From: Collinsella tanakaei
GTDB taxonomy: Bacteria > Actinomycetota > Coriobacteriia > Coriobacteriales > Coriobacteriaceae
Assembly: GCF_016900375.1 (NCBI RefSeq)
Contig: NZ_JACJKB010000004.1
Location: 62,001-126,000 of the forward strand
DNA length: 64,000 bases
Reading direction: 5' to 3'
The position numbers and the translations under genes were made by a program. The notes under the pieces were generated by a model. That model was not told the DNA's origin. It searched no databases and was given only the letters and a program-made list of their open reading frames with translations. Positions 5,354 through 52,984 of the stretch are shown piece after piece (positions within the stretch are counted from its first letter, which is position 1; every line of letters begins with the position of its first letter).

Positions 5354-6823
5354 TTATTGCACGGAACCGTCGGCGCCCTCGTGGCGCTCGACCGTCCCAA
5401 CCGTTGCATACACGTTTCCATCGACCAGCCCGATGCGGACCTCATCGCCCGAAGTCACCTGGTCGGCATGCGTCACCACGCCCGAGGGGCCGTAGGTGAT
5501 GGAGTAGCCGCGTGCCAGCACCTTGAGCGGAGAGAGCGCGTCGAGCGACGCCGCTGCCGCCGCGAGCTCGGATGCGCGCGTGGAAACCGCCGCGCGTCCC
5601 TCGTGCGCAAGTCGCGAAGCCGCGAGCTCGAGCGCATGGCTGCGTGCAGCGAAGCTCGAGGTGGTGGCGGCAAGCCGCGGCGCCGAACCGACCAGGCCCG
5701 CGCGGAAGCGCTCCTGGGACCGCGAGATCGCAGAAGTCAGACGGTCGGCGGTCTGCATGAGGTCGGCGGAGCGGCGCTCGAGCATGCCGGTCGGGCTCGA
5801 CAGGCATGGACGGCGGGCGGCGGCGTCGAGCGCGAGCGAGAGGCGCTCGAGATACGACGTGGTCGCACGCTCGATTCGCGTGCGCAGCGACGCGGCCTCG
5901 TTCTCCGCGGCATTCACGCGCGCGGTCATGGACACCGCAAGGCGGCGCTGACGTGCCTCGAGGACATCGACCAGGTCGGACATCGCCGGCGCCACCGACT
6001 CCGCCGCCGCCGTCGGCGTGGAGCAGCGCCTGTCGCTCACCATATCGCAGATCGAGGTATCGGGCTCGTGTCCGATACCCGTGACCACGGGGACGGGGCA
6101 CGCCGCCACGGCGCGCGCAAGTGCCTCGTCGTTGAAGGTCATGAGGTCCTCGAACGAGCCACCGCCGCGCACGAGCAGGATGCAGTCGGGGGCGGGCGTT
6201 ATCGCCGCAGCACGGCCCAGAGCCTCGATCAGCTCCTCGGGAGCGCCCTCGCCCTGCACCTTCGAGCCCACGCAGATGAGCTCGACCAGCGGGTTGCGCC
6301 GGCGCAGCGTGCGCTTGACGTCGTCGATCACCGCGCCCGAAAGCGAGGTGACCACCGCCACGCGCGTGCAGAACACGGGGATGCGGCGCTTGCGCGCATC
6401 GTCCATGAGACCCTCGCGGCGCAGCTTCTCGGCAAGTGCCGCCACCTGCTGGCGCAGCATGCCCTCCCCCGCCAGGGTGAACGAGCGCGCCACGAAGCTC
6501 ATGCGGCCCGTCGCCTTGTAGAGGTTGAAATTGCCCGTGAACTGGACCTGCATGCCATCGCGCAGTTCGAAGGTGCGCTTGGCGTAGCTCCCGCGCCAGA
6601 TGATGCAATCCACGGCGCAGGCGTCATCTTTTATCTGGAAGTAGCAGTGGCCGCTGCGCGCATTGGGCCCACGGAAACCCGTGACCTCGCCGAGCACGGT
6701 GAGCTGCGGCAACGCGTCGAGCGCACCGGCTGCCATATCGACCGCCTGCGACACCGACAGGGCGTCGGGGGAAGACCCATCCTTCCCGGCAGCGGAAACT
6801 CCCGTCAGATTCCAGCCTGGCAT
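5354..6823 (-). CDS. xseA: exodeoxyribonuclease VII large subunit
   Basis: 489 residues, slightly longer than the roughly 450 of model species. It has an N-terminal OB fold (LTVLGEVTGFRGP, GHCYFQIKD, CIIWRG) that binds single-stranded DNA, then the catalytic core with VARGGGS-like LLVRGGGSFEDLMTFNDE and PVVTGIGHEPDTSICDMVSD near residue 260, and a long helical C-terminal part that carries the small subunit. The ATG at 6823 was chosen because AAAGGAG precedes it; the frame is open a little further upstream. First gene of xseAB. Confidence 0.95.
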   Translation of the reverse strand: MPGWNLTGVSAAGKDGSSPDALSVSQAVDMAAGALDALPQLTVLGEVTGFRGPNARSGHCYFQIKDDACAVDCIIWRGSYAKRTFELRDGMQVQFTGNFNLYKATGRMSFVARSFTLAGEGMLRQQVAALAEKLRREGLMDDARKRRIPVFCTRVAVVTSLSGAVIDDVKRTLRRRNPLVELICVGSKVQGEGAPEELIEALGRAAAITPAPDCILLVRGGGSFEDLMTFNDEALARAVAACPVPVVTGIGHEPDTSICDMVSDRRCSTPTAAAESVAPAMSDLVDVLEARQRRLAVSMTARVNAAENEAASLRTRIERATTSYLERLSLALDAAARRPCLSSPTGMLERRSADLMQTADRLTSAISRSQERFRAGLVGSAPRLAATTSSFAARSHALELAASRLAHEGRAAVSTRASELAAAAASLDALSPLKVLARGYSITYGPSGVVTHADQVTSGDEVRIGLVDGNVYATVGTVERHEGADGSVQ

Positions 6824-10163: not shown

Positions 10164-10175
10164 TCGGCCGCCCGC

Positions 10176-10267
10176 GGTGCCTGGCCTCTCTGGGGACGTA
10201 GCCGGAAGGCGCCAAGGGCGCGCGCCCTTGGCGCCTTCCGGCTACGTCCCCAGAGAGGCCAGGCACC
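10176..10267. repeat. 92-base perfect palindrome
   Basis: Two 46-base halves (starting GGTGCCTGGCCTCTCTGGGG) are exact complements with no loop, centred on GGGCGCGCGCCC. It lies 12 bases after the previous palindrome with unrelated sequence. Together they separate the lipid-kinase gene from the tryptophan leader promoter. Confidence 0.9.
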
Positions 10268-10320
10268 GAAACAGGTGGGAAACAATTCCCGGCGGGCTCT
10301 TCCCTGCCTGCACTTCGCTG

Positions 10321-16528: not shown

Positions 16529-16588
16529 TGACAGTTAGGACGGGGCCCAGTGTCATAAACATGACACCGGGCCCCGTCCTAACTGTTA
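16529..16588. repeat. TGACAG-family palindrome
   Basis: 28-base arms (16529-16556 and 16561-16588) with two mismatches and a 4-base loop, followed by TATAAAAA. It begins seven bases after the preceding stop and probably terminates transcription. The 16589-16733 stretch beyond it shows nothing else. Confidence 0.8.
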
Positions 16589-23655: not shown

Positions 23656-23691
23656 CAGTTAGGACGGTTCCCAGCGTCATGCTTTTGCGCC
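23653..23691 (+). repeat. half-copy of a TGACAG-family repeat
   Basis: The stretch TGACAGTTAGGACGGTTCCC and onward matches the left arm and start of the loop of the full palindrome at 29563-29645 almost base for base, but the right arm is missing. It contributes the sufU stop codon. Confidence 0.75.
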
Positions 23692-24872: not shown

Positions 24873-24899
24873 GTGAAATTACCCTAGAGGTTTTTTCAC
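24873..24899 (-). repeat. REP element overlapping the end of the RAYT gene
   Basis: 27-base imperfect hairpin with GTGAAAT and TTTTTTCAC ends and CCTAGAGG centre. The transposase stop codon and its last six codons lie inside it. Near-identical to the copy at 25670-25696 and similar to 25831 and 25909. Confidence 0.8.
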
Positions 24900-25640
24900 G
24901 CGGGCGATGACACCACGACCGATGCCGGTCATGCGCTCAATCTGCTTGATACTCATGCCAGCGCCCCGCATCCATGCAATACCCTGGTTGCGCACAGGGG
25001 AAGCAGCTCTTTTAAGAGAATCGGGGCTCTCAACTCCCAAATCTCTCGCAACAGCATTGGCAATCTTGAGGGCTTCGGAATCTTGTAGCCGTACCGGCCC
25101 CTCGAAACCCGTCTCATACTCACAACCCCCGCAGCACAGCTCCATCAATCCGGTCGCACCGCCCAACATCGACAGGACCAAATCCGTGTCGCACATACCG
25201 GCTGCCCCTAGATACTCCCGATAACTGCTCCATGCGTACTCGTCGACGCGCGCCATGCCCGCTTTAACGGGATTGAGATGGATATAGCGCACCGTAGCGA
25301 GTAAATGCTCGTCGCTCTCGACTGGCTCGCTAAAGAACCGTTGCTGAAACACGTGTCCGACATGGCTGGTGCGAGCATTGAAATAGCACGCATATCCGGT
25401 AAGAAGACGGTGCATGGCTTCGCTCAAACGTCCGTGATCATCCTGCAAGAGCAAATGAACATGATTGTCCATCAAGCACCAAGCCAAAATCGAAACTCCA
25501 TGCTCCATCATGACGTTTCGAAGCATAGAGCAGAACCTTTGTCGGTCGTGATCATCCTCGAAGATTATCTGCCTTCCGTTTCCACGCGCGACAACATGGT
25601 ACAAACCGGTCTCTGATAGCTGGCGCGGATGACTCGTCAT
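24879..25640 (-). CDS. REP-associated tyrosine transposase (RAYT, Y1/HUH type)
   Basis: 253 residues from the ATG preceded by GAAAGGGG. This is a single-tyrosine HUH nuclease: the metal-binding HxH is His60-Val-His62 in DNHVHLLL, and the catalytic tyrosine is Tyr119 in RYIHLNPVKAG, the form used by E. coli TnpA-REP. It also has GYACYFNARTSHVGHVFQQRFF. A C-terminal helix-turn-helix-like segment (SIKQIERMTGIGRGVIARV) is typical of one RAYT group. RAYTs cut single-stranded DNA next to REP hairpins. Here REPs flank the gene on both sides at close range, so gene and repeats form one unit. Reading further upstream would translate the 5' REP, so I excluded it. Confidence 0.9.
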   Translation of the reverse strand: MTSHPRQLSETGLYHVVARGNGRQIIFEDDHDRQRFCSMLRNVMMEHGVSILAWCLMDNHVHLLLQDDHGRLSEAMHRLLTGYACYFNARTSHVGHVFQQRFFSEPVESDEHLLATVRYIHLNPVKAGMARVDEYAWSSYREYLGAAGMCDTDLVLSMLGGATGLMELCCGGCEYETGFEGPVRLQDSEALKIANAVARDLGVESPDSLKRAASPVRNQGIAWMRGAGMSIKQIERMTGIGRGVIARVKKPLG

Positions 25641-25669
25641 ATCGAACCCCTTTCGCTCCTCCCCACCAT

Positions 25670-25696
25670 GTGAAATAACGCTAGAGGTTTTTTCAC
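25670..25696 (-). repeat. REP element upstream of the RAYT gene
   Basis: 27-base hairpin sequence, same orientation as 24873-24899 and differing at only two central positions. Lies 30 bases before the transposase start. The AT-rich stretch 25741-25800 beyond it is unlike the rest of the window and may hold the transposase promoter. Confidence 0.8.
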
Positions 25697-25830
25697 GCGA
25701 CAGGTCGACGTTGTTGAGACGGAAGGTACCCAATACATCGAGATGTAGTCACAATTTATTTATTTTTTCTTCTCTGGTCTTATTCATATCAAACAAATAA
25801 CTGACAGGCAGCGAACAGAGGGCAGCGGGC

Positions 25831-28016: not shown

Positions 28017-29573
28017 ATGCACGGAATCGACGCTCTCTTCGACACCGACGTGCTCGTCATCGGTTCGGGCATAGCGGGGTGCTGCGCCGCGATCGAGGCC
28101 GCCCGAGCTGGAGCGCGCGTGGCGGTCGCCTGCATGGGGCGAAGGTTCTCAGGCTCGAGCTTCTTCCCTGGCACATGGGGCCTCGGCCTCATCGGACCCG
28201 AAGACGACACGGACGCCGCCGACCTTGCCGACACCATCTGCCGCGTGGGCTGCGGCGTCGCGGACCGCGCGCTCGTCGAGACGCTTGTCGAGGGCATCCG
28301 CCCCGGGATGGCCTGGCTGGAAGAGCTCGGCGTGGAGCTTGCGCGCCCCGCGAACAGCGAGTCTGCACGCGAGCAGGCGTTCATCCCCTGCTTCGACCAC
28401 AAGAACCGGCTGTGGCGCGGCCTCACGCGCCGCAGCACCGAGCAGGCCTTCGCGCGCGAGCTCGAGCGGCTCGACGTGACGGTACTTGAGCGTTGCGAGC
28501 TTATGGACCTTACCGAGTGTGATGAATCCGGGACCCGGCGCATCGTGGGCGCGGTGGTGTTCGACCACCGCGCCCAGCGCGCACTCCGCATCGATGCGCG
28601 CGCCGTGGTGATAGCCGCCGGCGGAACAGGCGGCCTGTTCGAGCGGAGCCTCACCTCGCGCGACGTTCTGAGCTCCTCTCACGGCATCGCCGGGGCGCAC
28701 GGCTGCGACCTCGTGAATATCGAGTTCATGCAGATGATGCCCGGTCTCGTCTGGCCCAAGACGGGCATCGTGTTCAACGAGAAGAGCTTCCGCTTTGCCC
28801 ATATGGAGCCCGAGCTGCCGCGCGACCTGCTCGAGATGCGCTCGGCCTATGGCCCGTTTACCTGCAGGCTCCCCTCCTATGCGATCGACCTTGCCATCGA
28901 CCGCGCGGGAGCAGACGGCCTTGCGATTCGATACCGCTTCCCCGAGCACGATGTGCCCGAGTTCGTGCAGACGTTTTGCGACTGGCTCGAGCGGGAACAA
29001 GGAATCGCTCCGACCGACGAGCTGCGCGTGGCCATGTACGCCCATGCGGCAAACGGCGGCATCCGCATCGACCAGGACGGGGCGACCGGGGTTGCGGGCC
29101 TGTTCGCCGCAGGCGAGGCCACGGGCGGCATGCACGGCGCCGACCGCATCGGCGGCTTGTCGAGCGCAAACGGGCTGGTGTTCGGCAGGCGCGCGGGACG
29201 CAGCGCCGCGGAATGGGCGCAGCAGGAACCGGCAAGGAGCGCGGAGGCTCAGGGCATCGATGCGGCCGCGATCATCTCAGACGGTATAGCTGAGCAGACG
29301 GCGCACGACCTCACCGCGCGCCTGCGCTCCACGATGAGCGCGCACTGCATGATCAACCGGACGGATACCGGGCTGACGTGCGCACTGGACGATATCGCAG
29401 CGATCCGCAGCGAGCTTCTGGAGGCATCGGAGAACGCGACCGGCTCCGACGCCAGCTGGGCACGCGCCCGCAGGCTCGAGTCGCAGCTCGCGCTCGCCGA
29501 GGCGATGGCGAGCGCCATGAAAGCCCGCCGCAAAAGCCTAGGCTCCCACTACCGCGTCGATGATGACAGTTAG
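28017..29573 (+). CDS. FAD-dependent oxidoreductase of the fumarate reductase/L-aspartate oxidase family
   Basis: 518 residues. The N-terminal dinucleotide-binding motif is VLVIGSGIAGCCAAIEAARAG. The C-terminal FAD block AAGEATGGMHGADRIGGLSSANGLVFGRRAG closely resembles NadB/SdhA. The usual substrate-pocket motif QFHPT is replaced by QMMPGLVWPK, and nadA/nadC are not nearby, so I do not call it NadB. It has no signal peptide or heme/FMN domain and would be cytoplasmic. ATG at 28017 has AAGGAGG before it. The stop TAG lies inside an inverted repeat. Substrate unknown. Confidence 0.82.
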   Translation: MHGIDALFDTDVLVIGSGIAGCCAAIEAARAGARVAVACMGRRFSGSSFFPGTWGLGLIGPEDDTDAADLADTICRVGCGVADRALVETLVEGIRPGMAWLEELGVELARPANSESAREQAFIPCFDHKNRLWRGLTRRSTEQAFARELERLDVTVLERCELMDLTECDESGTRRIVGAVVFDHRAQRALRIDARAVVIAAGGTGGLFERSLTSRDVLSSSHGIAGAHGCDLVNIEFMQMMPGLVWPKTGIVFNEKSFRFAHMEPELPRDLLEMRSAYGPFTCRLPSYAIDLAIDRAGADGLAIRYRFPEHDVPEFVQTFCDWLEREQGIAPTDELRVAMYAHAANGGIRIDQDGATGVAGLFAAGEATGGMHGADRIGGLSSANGLVFGRRAGRSAAEWAQQEPARSAEAQGIDAAAIISDGIAEQTAHDLTARLRSTMSAHCMINRTDTGLTCALDDIAAIRSELLEASENATGSDASWARARRLESQLALAEAMASAMKARRKSLGSHYRVDDDS

Positions 29574-29645
29574 GACGGTTCCCAGCGTCATGCTTTTGTG
29601 CCGTGTGCGGCAAAACATGACGCTGGGAACCGTCCTAACTGTCAT
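29563..29645. repeat. TGACAG-family palindrome, 30-bp perfect arms
   Basis: Arms 29563-29592 and 29616-29645 are exact complements; the loop pairs further (TTTTG with CAAAA). The flavoprotein stop codon is within the left arm. The left arm plus loop start reappears as a half-copy after sufU. Confidence 0.88.
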
Positions 29646-29699
29646 GAAAAAAGCCCCATTTGCTGGGGCGATCAATTAGATGGGGTGGACCGTCAGGGA
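29645..29699 (-). repeat. duplicated tRNA-Lys 3' end plus terminator
   Basis: Nearly identical to 29834-29886: it repeats the tRNA acceptor side and part of the T-arm (GGACCGTCAGGGA on the top strand) and the GCCCC/GGGGC terminator with its T-run. The rest of the tRNA is absent, so it is not a functional tRNA. Confidence 0.85.
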
Positions 29700-29833
29700 T
29701 GTCGGCCGCCGCTTTGCGGCGACCTCCCGCTGCGGAGGCCTGCGGCCTCCTTGCGACCCATGCTGGCAAATGCTCGCGCATTTGGCGCAGCATGGGGCCC
29801 TGCGGGTTCGAATCCCCTGCACGGGGCCGAATA
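29700..29833 (-). mobile_element. tRNA-end hairpin element (Lys locus)
   Basis: Gene-free module enclosed by the two copies of the tRNA-Lys 3' end. Read on the minus strand it starts with an inverted T-arm (GGGGATTCGAACCCGCAGGG) and then three hairpins in order: CAAATGC/GCATTTG, GGAGGCC-GCA-GGCCTCC and CGCCGC/GCGGCG. The same order and the same inverted T-arm occur in the two modules after tRNA-Ala (52504-52823). No coding capacity. Mobile nature is inferred from flanking direct repeats at a tRNA 3' end. Confidence 0.6.
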
Positions 29834-29856: not shown

Positions 29857-29872
29857 GATCAATCAGATGGGG

Positions 29873-29946
29873 TGGACCGTCAGGGATTCGAACCCTGGAC
29901 CTTGGGATTAAGAGTCCCCTGCTCTAGCCAGCTGAGCTAACGGTCC
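29873..29946 (-). tRNA. tRNA-Lys(CTT)
   Basis: Full cloverleaf on the minus strand: acceptor GGACCGT with ACGGTCC, D-arm AGCTCAGCTGG, anticodon loop CTCTTAA (anticodon CTT), T-loop TTCGAAT. Discriminator A; the next three bases are CCC, so CCA is not encoded. Identical body to the neighbouring copy. Confidence 0.96.
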
Positions 29947-52385: not shown

Positions 52386-52461
52386 GGGGACGTAGCTCAG
52401 CTGGGAGAGCGCTGCCGTCGCATGGCAGAGGCCGAGGGTTCGATTCCCTTCGTCTCCACCA
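52386..52461 (+). tRNA. tRNA-Ala(CGC)
   Basis: Cloverleaf with acceptor GGGGACG/CGTCTCC including the G3-U70 wobble that identifies alanine tRNAs, anticodon loop GTCGCAT (anticodon CGC), T-loop TTCGATT, and an encoded CCA. Confidence 0.95.
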
Positions 52462-52921
52462 CAGGATTTGATAAGGGTATCTACCTCGGTAGATACCCTT
52501 TTTGTTATCAGTGCGGGGAATCGAACCCGCAGGGCGCGAAGCTGAGGAAATGCGTTGAGCATTTCCCAGCGAAGCGCGCGAGGAGGCCGCAGGCCTCCGA
52601 AGCGACCCCGGACGCCGCAGGCGGCCGGGGACTTCCCTTCGTCTCCACCACAGGATTTGATAAGGGTATCTACCTCGGTAGATACCCTTTTTGTTAACCA
52701 TGCGGGGAATCGAACCCCGTTCGGGGCGCGAGGCTGCGGAAACGCGCCAAGCGTTTCCCAGCGAGCGGGCAAGGGCGGCGCAGCCGCCCGCAGCCCACGC
52801 AGGAGGCGCCAGCCTCCTGCGGATTCCCTTCGTCTCCACCACAGGAACTGATAAGGGTATCTACCTCGGTAGATACCCTTTTTCGTTATAAGCGCGGGGA
52901 ATCGAACTCGTCGAACTCCCC
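52444..52921 (+). mobile_element. tandem array of tRNA-end hairpin elements after tRNA-Ala
   Basis: The tRNA 3' end (TTCCCTTCGTCTCCACCA) plus its terminator occurs three times, starting at 52444, 52633 and 52824 (periods 189 and 191). The first two 65-base copies are identical. After each terminator comes a module: an inverted T-arm (GGGGAATCGAACCC) and three hairpins, ending where the next tRNA 3' end begins. The third module is cut off after about 25 bases. No reading frame in it is credible. The architecture equals that at tRNA-Lys (29645-29886). I infer repeated insertion at, or duplication of, the tRNA T-loop/3' end. Confidence 0.65.
52473..52503 (+). terminator. tRNA-Ala terminator, first of three copies
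   Basis: 13-bp stem AAGGGTATCTACC with a 2-base loop and T-run. Repeated at about 52662-52692 and 52853-52883 as part of the tandem element array. Confidence 0.9.
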
Positions 52922-52922
52922 C

Positions 52923-52984
52923 ATTGTGTCCGTGGGTTTGGCACGCTTGGCGGTCTGCAAGCGGACCAAACCCACGGACACAAT
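52923..52984. repeat. inverted repeat, 18-bp perfect arms
   Basis: ATTGTGTCCGTGGGTTTG with its complement, inner GCTTG/CAAGC stem. Lies between the tRNA-element array and the LOG gene; singleton in this window. Confidence 0.8.

Follow-up and report, generated by a model that had tools for sequence, protein, structure and literature searches.

Gene-free hairpin modules behind tRNA genes of Collinsella and other Coriobacteriales are probably a family of mobile elements

The short repeats behind two tRNA genes in a 64,000-nucleotide stretch of the Collinsella tanakaei genome (the window) probably belong to a family of mobile hairpin elements, non-autonomous and free of genes, whose insertion sites lie behind tRNA and tmRNA genes. 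The argument for this is drawn from sequence comparison, and at the level of the family the claim of a mobile element is well supported. If true, very small selfish elements are abundant in common human gut bacteria, and the family would have been overlooked because its members encode nothing and lie behind tRNA genes. It would also provide an example of an element with target-copied ends; to our knowledge, no known class of mobile element copies its own ends from the target. For annotation, the modules account for the incomplete 3′ ends of tRNAs and the recurring terminators that are found behind tRNA genes in Coriobacteriales.

The larger of the two window loci is an array on the + strand. 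It starts with tRNA-Ala(CGC) (52386-52461; ARAGORN, Rfam tRNA and sequence), with the T-loop TTCGATT at 52439-52445 and the 3′-terminal 18-mer TTCCCTTCGTCTCCACCA, which runs from position 59 in the T-loop to the last A, at 52444-52461. Trailer 1 (52462-52507) includes a rho-independent terminator hairpin (52473-52500) with a T run. Next come module 1 (52508-52632), consisting of an inverted T-arm (~52515-52530) and a hairpin core, and a first copy of the tRNA-Ala 3′ end (52633-52650) with its trailer and terminator, ending at 52696. Module 2 has the same composition (52697-52823, inverted T-arm ~52704-52718) and is followed by a second copy of the 3′ end (52824-52841) with a diverged trailer and terminator, ending at 52888. 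The 18-mer thus starts at 52444, 52633 and 52824, with the periods of 189 and 191 that the first-pass annotation had noted. That annotation also described two identical copies of 65 bases; they are identical, over 64 nt (52444-52507 and 52633-52696, 3′ end plus terminator), and the third copy differs. At ~52896-52908 the sequence contains a bare inverted T-arm, GGGGAATCGAACT, which we read as the relic of a truncated older unit, and similar terminal relics are present at other loci. Directly 3′ of the array is a palindrome with 27-nt arms (ATTGTGTCCGTGGGTTTGG...CCAAACCCACGGACACAAT, 52923-52984).

Each module of the Ala array is ~125 nt long and has 13-nt perfect inverse repeats (GGGTTCGATTCCC/GGGAATCGAACCC) that constitute the inverted T-arm. 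The covariance-model matches score 114 bits for module 1 (52511-52645) and 100 bits for module 2 (52700-52837), and folding relative to shuffled sequences gave z values of -5.3 and -6.1. The modules begin with an inverted T-arm as first described, and the three hairpins reported for them become four stem-loops plus a closing stem.

We identified a second instance in the window, not previously noted, behind tRNA-Lys(CTT) (29871-29946, minus strand; ARAGORN and Rfam tRNA). The whole unit spans ~29822-29643 on the minus strand. Its module (29688-29821, 75 bits) comprises the hairpin core, the inverted T-arm GGGGATTCGAACCC and the start of the 3′-end copy, and the copy itself, ATCCCTGACGGTCCACC, is followed by the Lys trailer and terminator (29643-29700). 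The inverted arm of the Lys type (GGGGATTCGAACCC) differs from that of the Ala type (GGGGAATCGAACCC), and each complements its own host tRNA.

The window also carries REPIN-like palindromes with GTTAGGACGG...CCGTCCTAAC arms (16534-16583, 23658-23679 and 29569-29639), one of which directly adjoins the end of the Lys unit. A gene for a Y1 (TnpA/RAYT-like) transposase of 284 aa (24879-25733, minus strand) lies ~4 kb from the Lys module, and in many genomes of the C. aerofaciens clade a Y1 gene is likewise found ~4-6 kb from a Lys-type module. The window Y1 gene is probably the partner of the separate REPIN-like palindromes. On both strands, another palindrome (10175-10268) scores just over the threshold for MIR7486, a microRNA family; this is surely an accidental match to an inverted repeat.

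A search of relatives with the window locus found the module dispersed through the genus, in nearly all congeneric genomes tested, and the window array is therefore not a product of chance. Units follow one plan throughout: a tRNA, a trailer (usually with a terminator), an inverted T-arm, a hairpin core, and the repeated host 3′ end with its trailer. They measure ~190 nt, including a structured core of ~95 nt. We scanned ~85,000 species genomes with a pattern of the core only, without any tRNA sequence. The matches listed came from Collinsella, Enorma and other Coriobacteriaceae, plus one, rejected as a chance match, in tRNA-free DNA from Planctomycetaceae (L151). Among these listed matches, 108 of 127 modules lie 70-100 nt behind a tRNA on the same strand, a placement with a chance expectation of ~0.3% per position; eight more are later units of arrays and none is antisense. 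The remainder comprise modules whose tRNA is present as a 3′ fragment severed by another insertion, modules at contig ends, and the chance match. A copy of the host's own 3′ end is present downstream at no fewer than 131 tRNA loci (at least 131, representing at least 21 isoacceptors). The window's own genome has 13 covariance-model matches, and there the tmRNA is also a host, a case that the first-pass annotation did not include. No locus examined has a gene inside the unit or an autonomous, gene-bearing version, in agreement with the original observation that nothing is encoded. At five loci, tRNA 3′ fragments with a displaced 5′ part are each followed by a module (L157, ~6000-6350; L072; L080; L121; L132), and in L157 the 5′ part is displaced by the end of a tyrosine-recombinase gene.

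Building a covariance model of the module and scanning related genomes had been suggested at the outset. Our model, R1, built from 34 modules, matched 80 of 301 genomes of the order Coriobacteriales, in 21 genera. Most Coriobacteriaceae genomes were matched, as were, more weakly, genomes of three further families; two high-completeness Collinsella genomes had no R1 match. Nearly all the weaker matches are behind tRNAs (Ala, Arg, Gly, Leu, Lys, Phe, Ser, Thr and Trp), and these have host-matched inverted arms and copied 3′ ends. Some of these loci, such as Leu(TAA) ahead of Glu, have no terminator between the tRNA and the module; the duplication thus starts in the T-loop and its far end differs from locus to locus. 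A phylum-wide search with a strict pattern (inverted arm plus direct copy), which is very restrictive and thus does not prove absence, was positive in 4 of 297 genomes: three Coriobacteriales and one uninformative match without a tRNA.

Both ends of the module are specific to the host. When the inverted arm was placed by an anchor blind to positions 59-60, its dinucleotide at these positions was that of the host in 115 of 117 modules, against a mean of 39 and a maximum of 54 in shuffles, and the whole T-loop matched the host in 118 of 130. This host specificity of the arm goes beyond the first description. Complementarity is 93-100% over positions 51-62 and drops at 63-65. The direct copy of the tRNA 3′ end begins at T-loop position 56-59, and in 72 of 118 modules it extends 2-4 nt beyond position 59. 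Both core boundaries fall within the conserved GGTTCGA T-loop motif (TCGAACC on the left, CGA on the right).

Cores, on the other hand, are shared between hosts. An Arg(CCT) core (L069) and a Gly(CCC) core (L092) have 96.8% identity, and Leu(CAG) and Arg(CCT) cores 92.6%, with the ends matching each host in both comparisons. Since cores that are nearly identical occur at different tRNAs, each with both ends fitted to its host, we infer that cores move and that their ends are rewritten. For the same reason replication slippage, one of the two routes first offered for these repeats, is insufficient alone, although tandem copy number can be a matter of slippage. Within the C. aerofaciens clade, cores are 94% alike at the same tRNA and 78% alike at different tRNAs, indicating that recent jumps from tRNA to tRNA are infrequent. 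Between species, core likeness is 0.723 for the same tRNA and 0.720 for different tRNAs. Lineages are thus stable within a species group and over the long term are not bound to a tRNA. Some of the apparent jumps could instead reflect gene conversion between the cores of modules already in place. One locus (L009:1501-1900) is a chimera with tRNA-Ala and its inverted arm on the left and the tRNA-Leu(CAG) 3′ end and trailer on the right, arising from recombination between modules or from misassembly.

Comparison of relatives, as first proposed, revealed both occupied and empty sites. In all C. aerofaciens genomes examined tRNA-Ala(CGC) is empty, the tRNA and terminator being followed by a gene. 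At tRNA-Phe in the C. aerofaciens clade, seven genomes are empty and most others occupied, with clean junctions on shared flanks. Occupied sites read ...TTTTCTTTTAT-module-TTCCCTTCCCCGCCACC-trailer-TTTTCTTTTAT/TGAGGGCTC and empty sites ...TTTTCTTTTAT/TGAGGGCTC. On a tree of the flanking DNA, based on two loci in which recombination is possible, occupancy of tRNA-Phe changed seven times, which is the maximum for seven empty tips and is as expected at random. Two genomes (G003 and G007) differ by 0-0.5% in the flanks and by 10.4% in the cores. Since direct repeats allow easy and precise loss, we make no claim that all empty sites are ancestral; such loss could have produced the empty sites, and gain is not proven for each event. 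In tRNA-Val arrays the trailer types vary in order and number between strains, and this shuffling suits cassette exchange better than strict local copying of the target. These natural empty and occupied sites can be used for testing.

The fold of the core is conserved, on one strand in particular, which again adds to the first account. Among 77 distinct aligned modules, 29 pairs have two-sided changes. Double-changed cells number 392, compared with 109 in shuffles (0 of 500 as high) and at most 82 in slid controls, and the covariation score is 0.325 against 0.103. The alignment was model-fitted, which favours structure; the margin is large, and the support for covariation survives as strong. 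In closing helix 1, 89.8% of cells are paired and five pairs have two-sided changes. The core stems include 44 G-T and 8 A-C cells (23 and 8 without the richest pair), an excess indicating that selection acts on a single strand of the tRNA sense, be it RNA or ssDNA.

The way in which insertion could happen is a more tentative matter. In one joint reading, a structured short RNA or ssDNA, which would make up a new class of mobile nucleic acid, targets the universal T-loop of tRNA and tmRNA genes, its ends are rewritten by target-primed fold-back copying, and the E. coli tyrT (RtT) repeats, though familiar for a long time, are an unrecognised relative by convergence or deep descent; we consider this combination possible, though short of probable. 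The insertion chemistry taken separately (target-primed, with T-arm fold-back) is likewise a tentative proposal, to which we would give about a third of our belief. The mobile form would be a folded single strand of the tRNA sense (RNA or ssDNA). Because the boundaries abut the universal GGTTCGA motif, any T-arm might be usable as a target. The inverted and direct flanking copies would be templated from the target at insertion, for example by a target-primed copy of the core folding back on the T-arm stem. As a complete 3′ end and terminator remain upstream, the tRNA gene would be undisturbed. The repeats may then permit tandem growth, shuffling of units and precise loss, and the putative enzyme is presumably provided in trans. 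Cassette-like exchange within one tRNA might also be combined with core conversion between tRNAs. We rejected a retroviral-type primer-binding site (18 nt, stop at position 58), since the CCA end is outside the inverted arm and the 72 extended direct copies also run past position 59.

An account without any enzyme is unlikely. Template switching or slippage, provoked by the T-arm palindrome and the hairpins, would duplicate the 3′ end, invert the arm and swap cores through T-loop microhomology. Both core boundaries are indeed in GGTTCGA, hairpin-rich DNA and 60-nt direct repeats promote slippage, tandem copy number varies, and the L009 chimera suits recombination between modules, or misassembly. 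However, a covarying fold conserved across an order is not explained in this way, nor are the constant spacing and orientation, and each new site would require several switches per event.

Rather unlikely, in our estimate, is a functional small RNA of the RtT type, for which read-through from the promoter of the tRNA would supply the transcript, the repeated CCA the processing point and regulation the selective benefit, with the variation due to repeat turnover. The conserved fold and its bias to the transcript strand would fit, as would the plan shared with the E. coli tyrT repeats, where the CCA in the downstream copy marks the end of the annotated RtT RNA; RtT RNAs were reported to be expressed in Actinobacillus (PMC4986893). 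Against this, the tRNA and the module usually have a strong terminator between them, close relatives differ erratically in occupancy, none of the tRNAs is occupied in every case, truncated relics occur often, and the two high-completeness Collinsella genomes mentioned above gave no match.

We doubt somewhat more an integron-like system, in which a circle made of T-loop position 59 to CCA, trailer, inverted T-arm and core would enter the T-arm (as an attI-like site) through a tyrosine recombinase; equally doubtful is the equation of the folded module with an attC site and of the inverted T-arm with the inverse core site. tRNA T-loops are known integrase targets, the polarity and boundaries of the unit are those of a cassette with a T-loop crossover, units and trailers at tRNA-Val are reordered between strains with apparent tRNA-proximal additions, and truncated relics are frequent among distal units. 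However, a circle from one tRNA would destroy the acceptor stem of another, so circles leave cores with matched ends at different tRNAs unexplained. The T-arm sequence GTTCGAA also departs from the attC R-box consensus GTTRRRY, the arrays have no recombinase linked to them, and no cassette contains a gene.

An ordinary fossil duplication confined to tRNA-Ala, which the window array alone resembles in its decay, can be dismissed, as nearly all congeners have the module, many different tRNAs host it, and it is polymorphic among close relatives. The first-pass annotation had reserved this interpretation for an array identical in all strains and a module found nowhere else, which is clearly not the case given the empty sites, copy-number variation and occurrence elsewhere. 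Its proposal of a tRNA-targeting, non-autonomous element is supported in part, with regard to gene-free units linked to the 3′ end, occupied and empty sites, variable copy number and wide dispersal.

We compared the mobile family, our preferred reading, with known systems. Rfam at gathering and permissive thresholds returned nothing relevant but tRNA for the window, and the literature searched gave no account of such elements, the RtT paper alone being useful. REP/REPIN sequences with RAYT and MITE-like palindromes are also short, gene-free hairpins with many copies and presumed mobilisation in trans; unlike them, the modules have a strict tRNA 3′ target and host-copied ends, and Collinsella has separate REPIN-type palindromes. 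A RAYT/Y1 transposase was rejected as the mobiliser: it occurs in 39 of 45 Collinsella genomes and is missing from some module-rich ones (no match in G035, with 10 modules, or G027, with 5). Classical transposons and MITEs have element-specific terminal inverted repeats and target duplications of fixed length, whereas here the ends are host-specific and the end point varies by locus. Phages were rejected as vehicle, with 0 matches among 50,697 phages and only one IMG/VR contig. On that contig (L319:5602-7281, 6990-7300), which has a prophage-like end, the gene for a large serine recombinase directly borders the 3′ end of a tRNA-Lys, and this 3′ end is followed by a module.

Integron cassettes and attC sites share a folded single-strand site with complementary ends, arrays, shuffled order and apparent tRNA-proximal addition. 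They differ in that the ends here depend on the host, there is no coding cargo and no integron integrase was seen; the attC ends GTTRRRY and RYYYAAC are not present, the fourth base of the T-arm core being C. Integrative elements that target tRNAs include prophages, ICEs and IMEs with a tyrosine integrase. Like these, the Collinsella units recreate the tRNA 3′ end, have a crossover-like boundary in the T-loop and flanking direct repeats, and show empty and occupied sites (tRNA-Phe, tRNA-Ala). In contrast, they are ~190 nt long without an integrase or any gene, carry an inverted T-arm, and place one core at many tRNAs with ends matched to each.

The best architectural precedent, not considered in the first-pass annotation, is the 178-nt repeats of E. 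coli tyrT/tyrV with the RtT (rttR) RNA (Rfam RF00391). There too, gene-free tandem units lie behind a tRNA, a copy of the tRNA 3′ end closes each, and an inverted end copy (GGGGAAGGAT versus ATCCTTCCCC) closes a stem around several hairpins. The E. coli unit consists of GGGGAAGGAT, hairpins and ATCCTTCCCCCACCACCA, folds with a closing stem of 11 bp, and the annotated RttR RNA ends at ATCCTTCCCCCACCACCA CCA. The RtT form of a ~180-nt tandem unit that includes the final 18-20 nt of the preceding tRNA is found family-wide in our modules. Of 5426 E. coli genomes, 4708 have RtT sequence, in 1-10 copies, and 718 lack it, and in strain SK1144 only 33 nt separate the two tRNA-Tyr genes. The RF00391 model had no match in the window at the gathering threshold or at E ≤ 10, and R1 had none in E. 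coli tyrT; the likeness is thus one of plan rather than of demonstrated homology. E. coli tyrT inverts only the T-stem/acceptor strand, whereas the Collinsella module inverts the whole T-arm, and no terminator hairpin of the Collinsella kind was seen between tRNA and repeat in E. coli K-12. The E. coli matches listed are RtT repeats, whereas the Collinsella family has at least 21 tRNAs and tmRNA as hosts. If our reading is right, it offers a possible explanation for the tyrT repeats, a puzzle of several decades, and opens that puzzle to testing.
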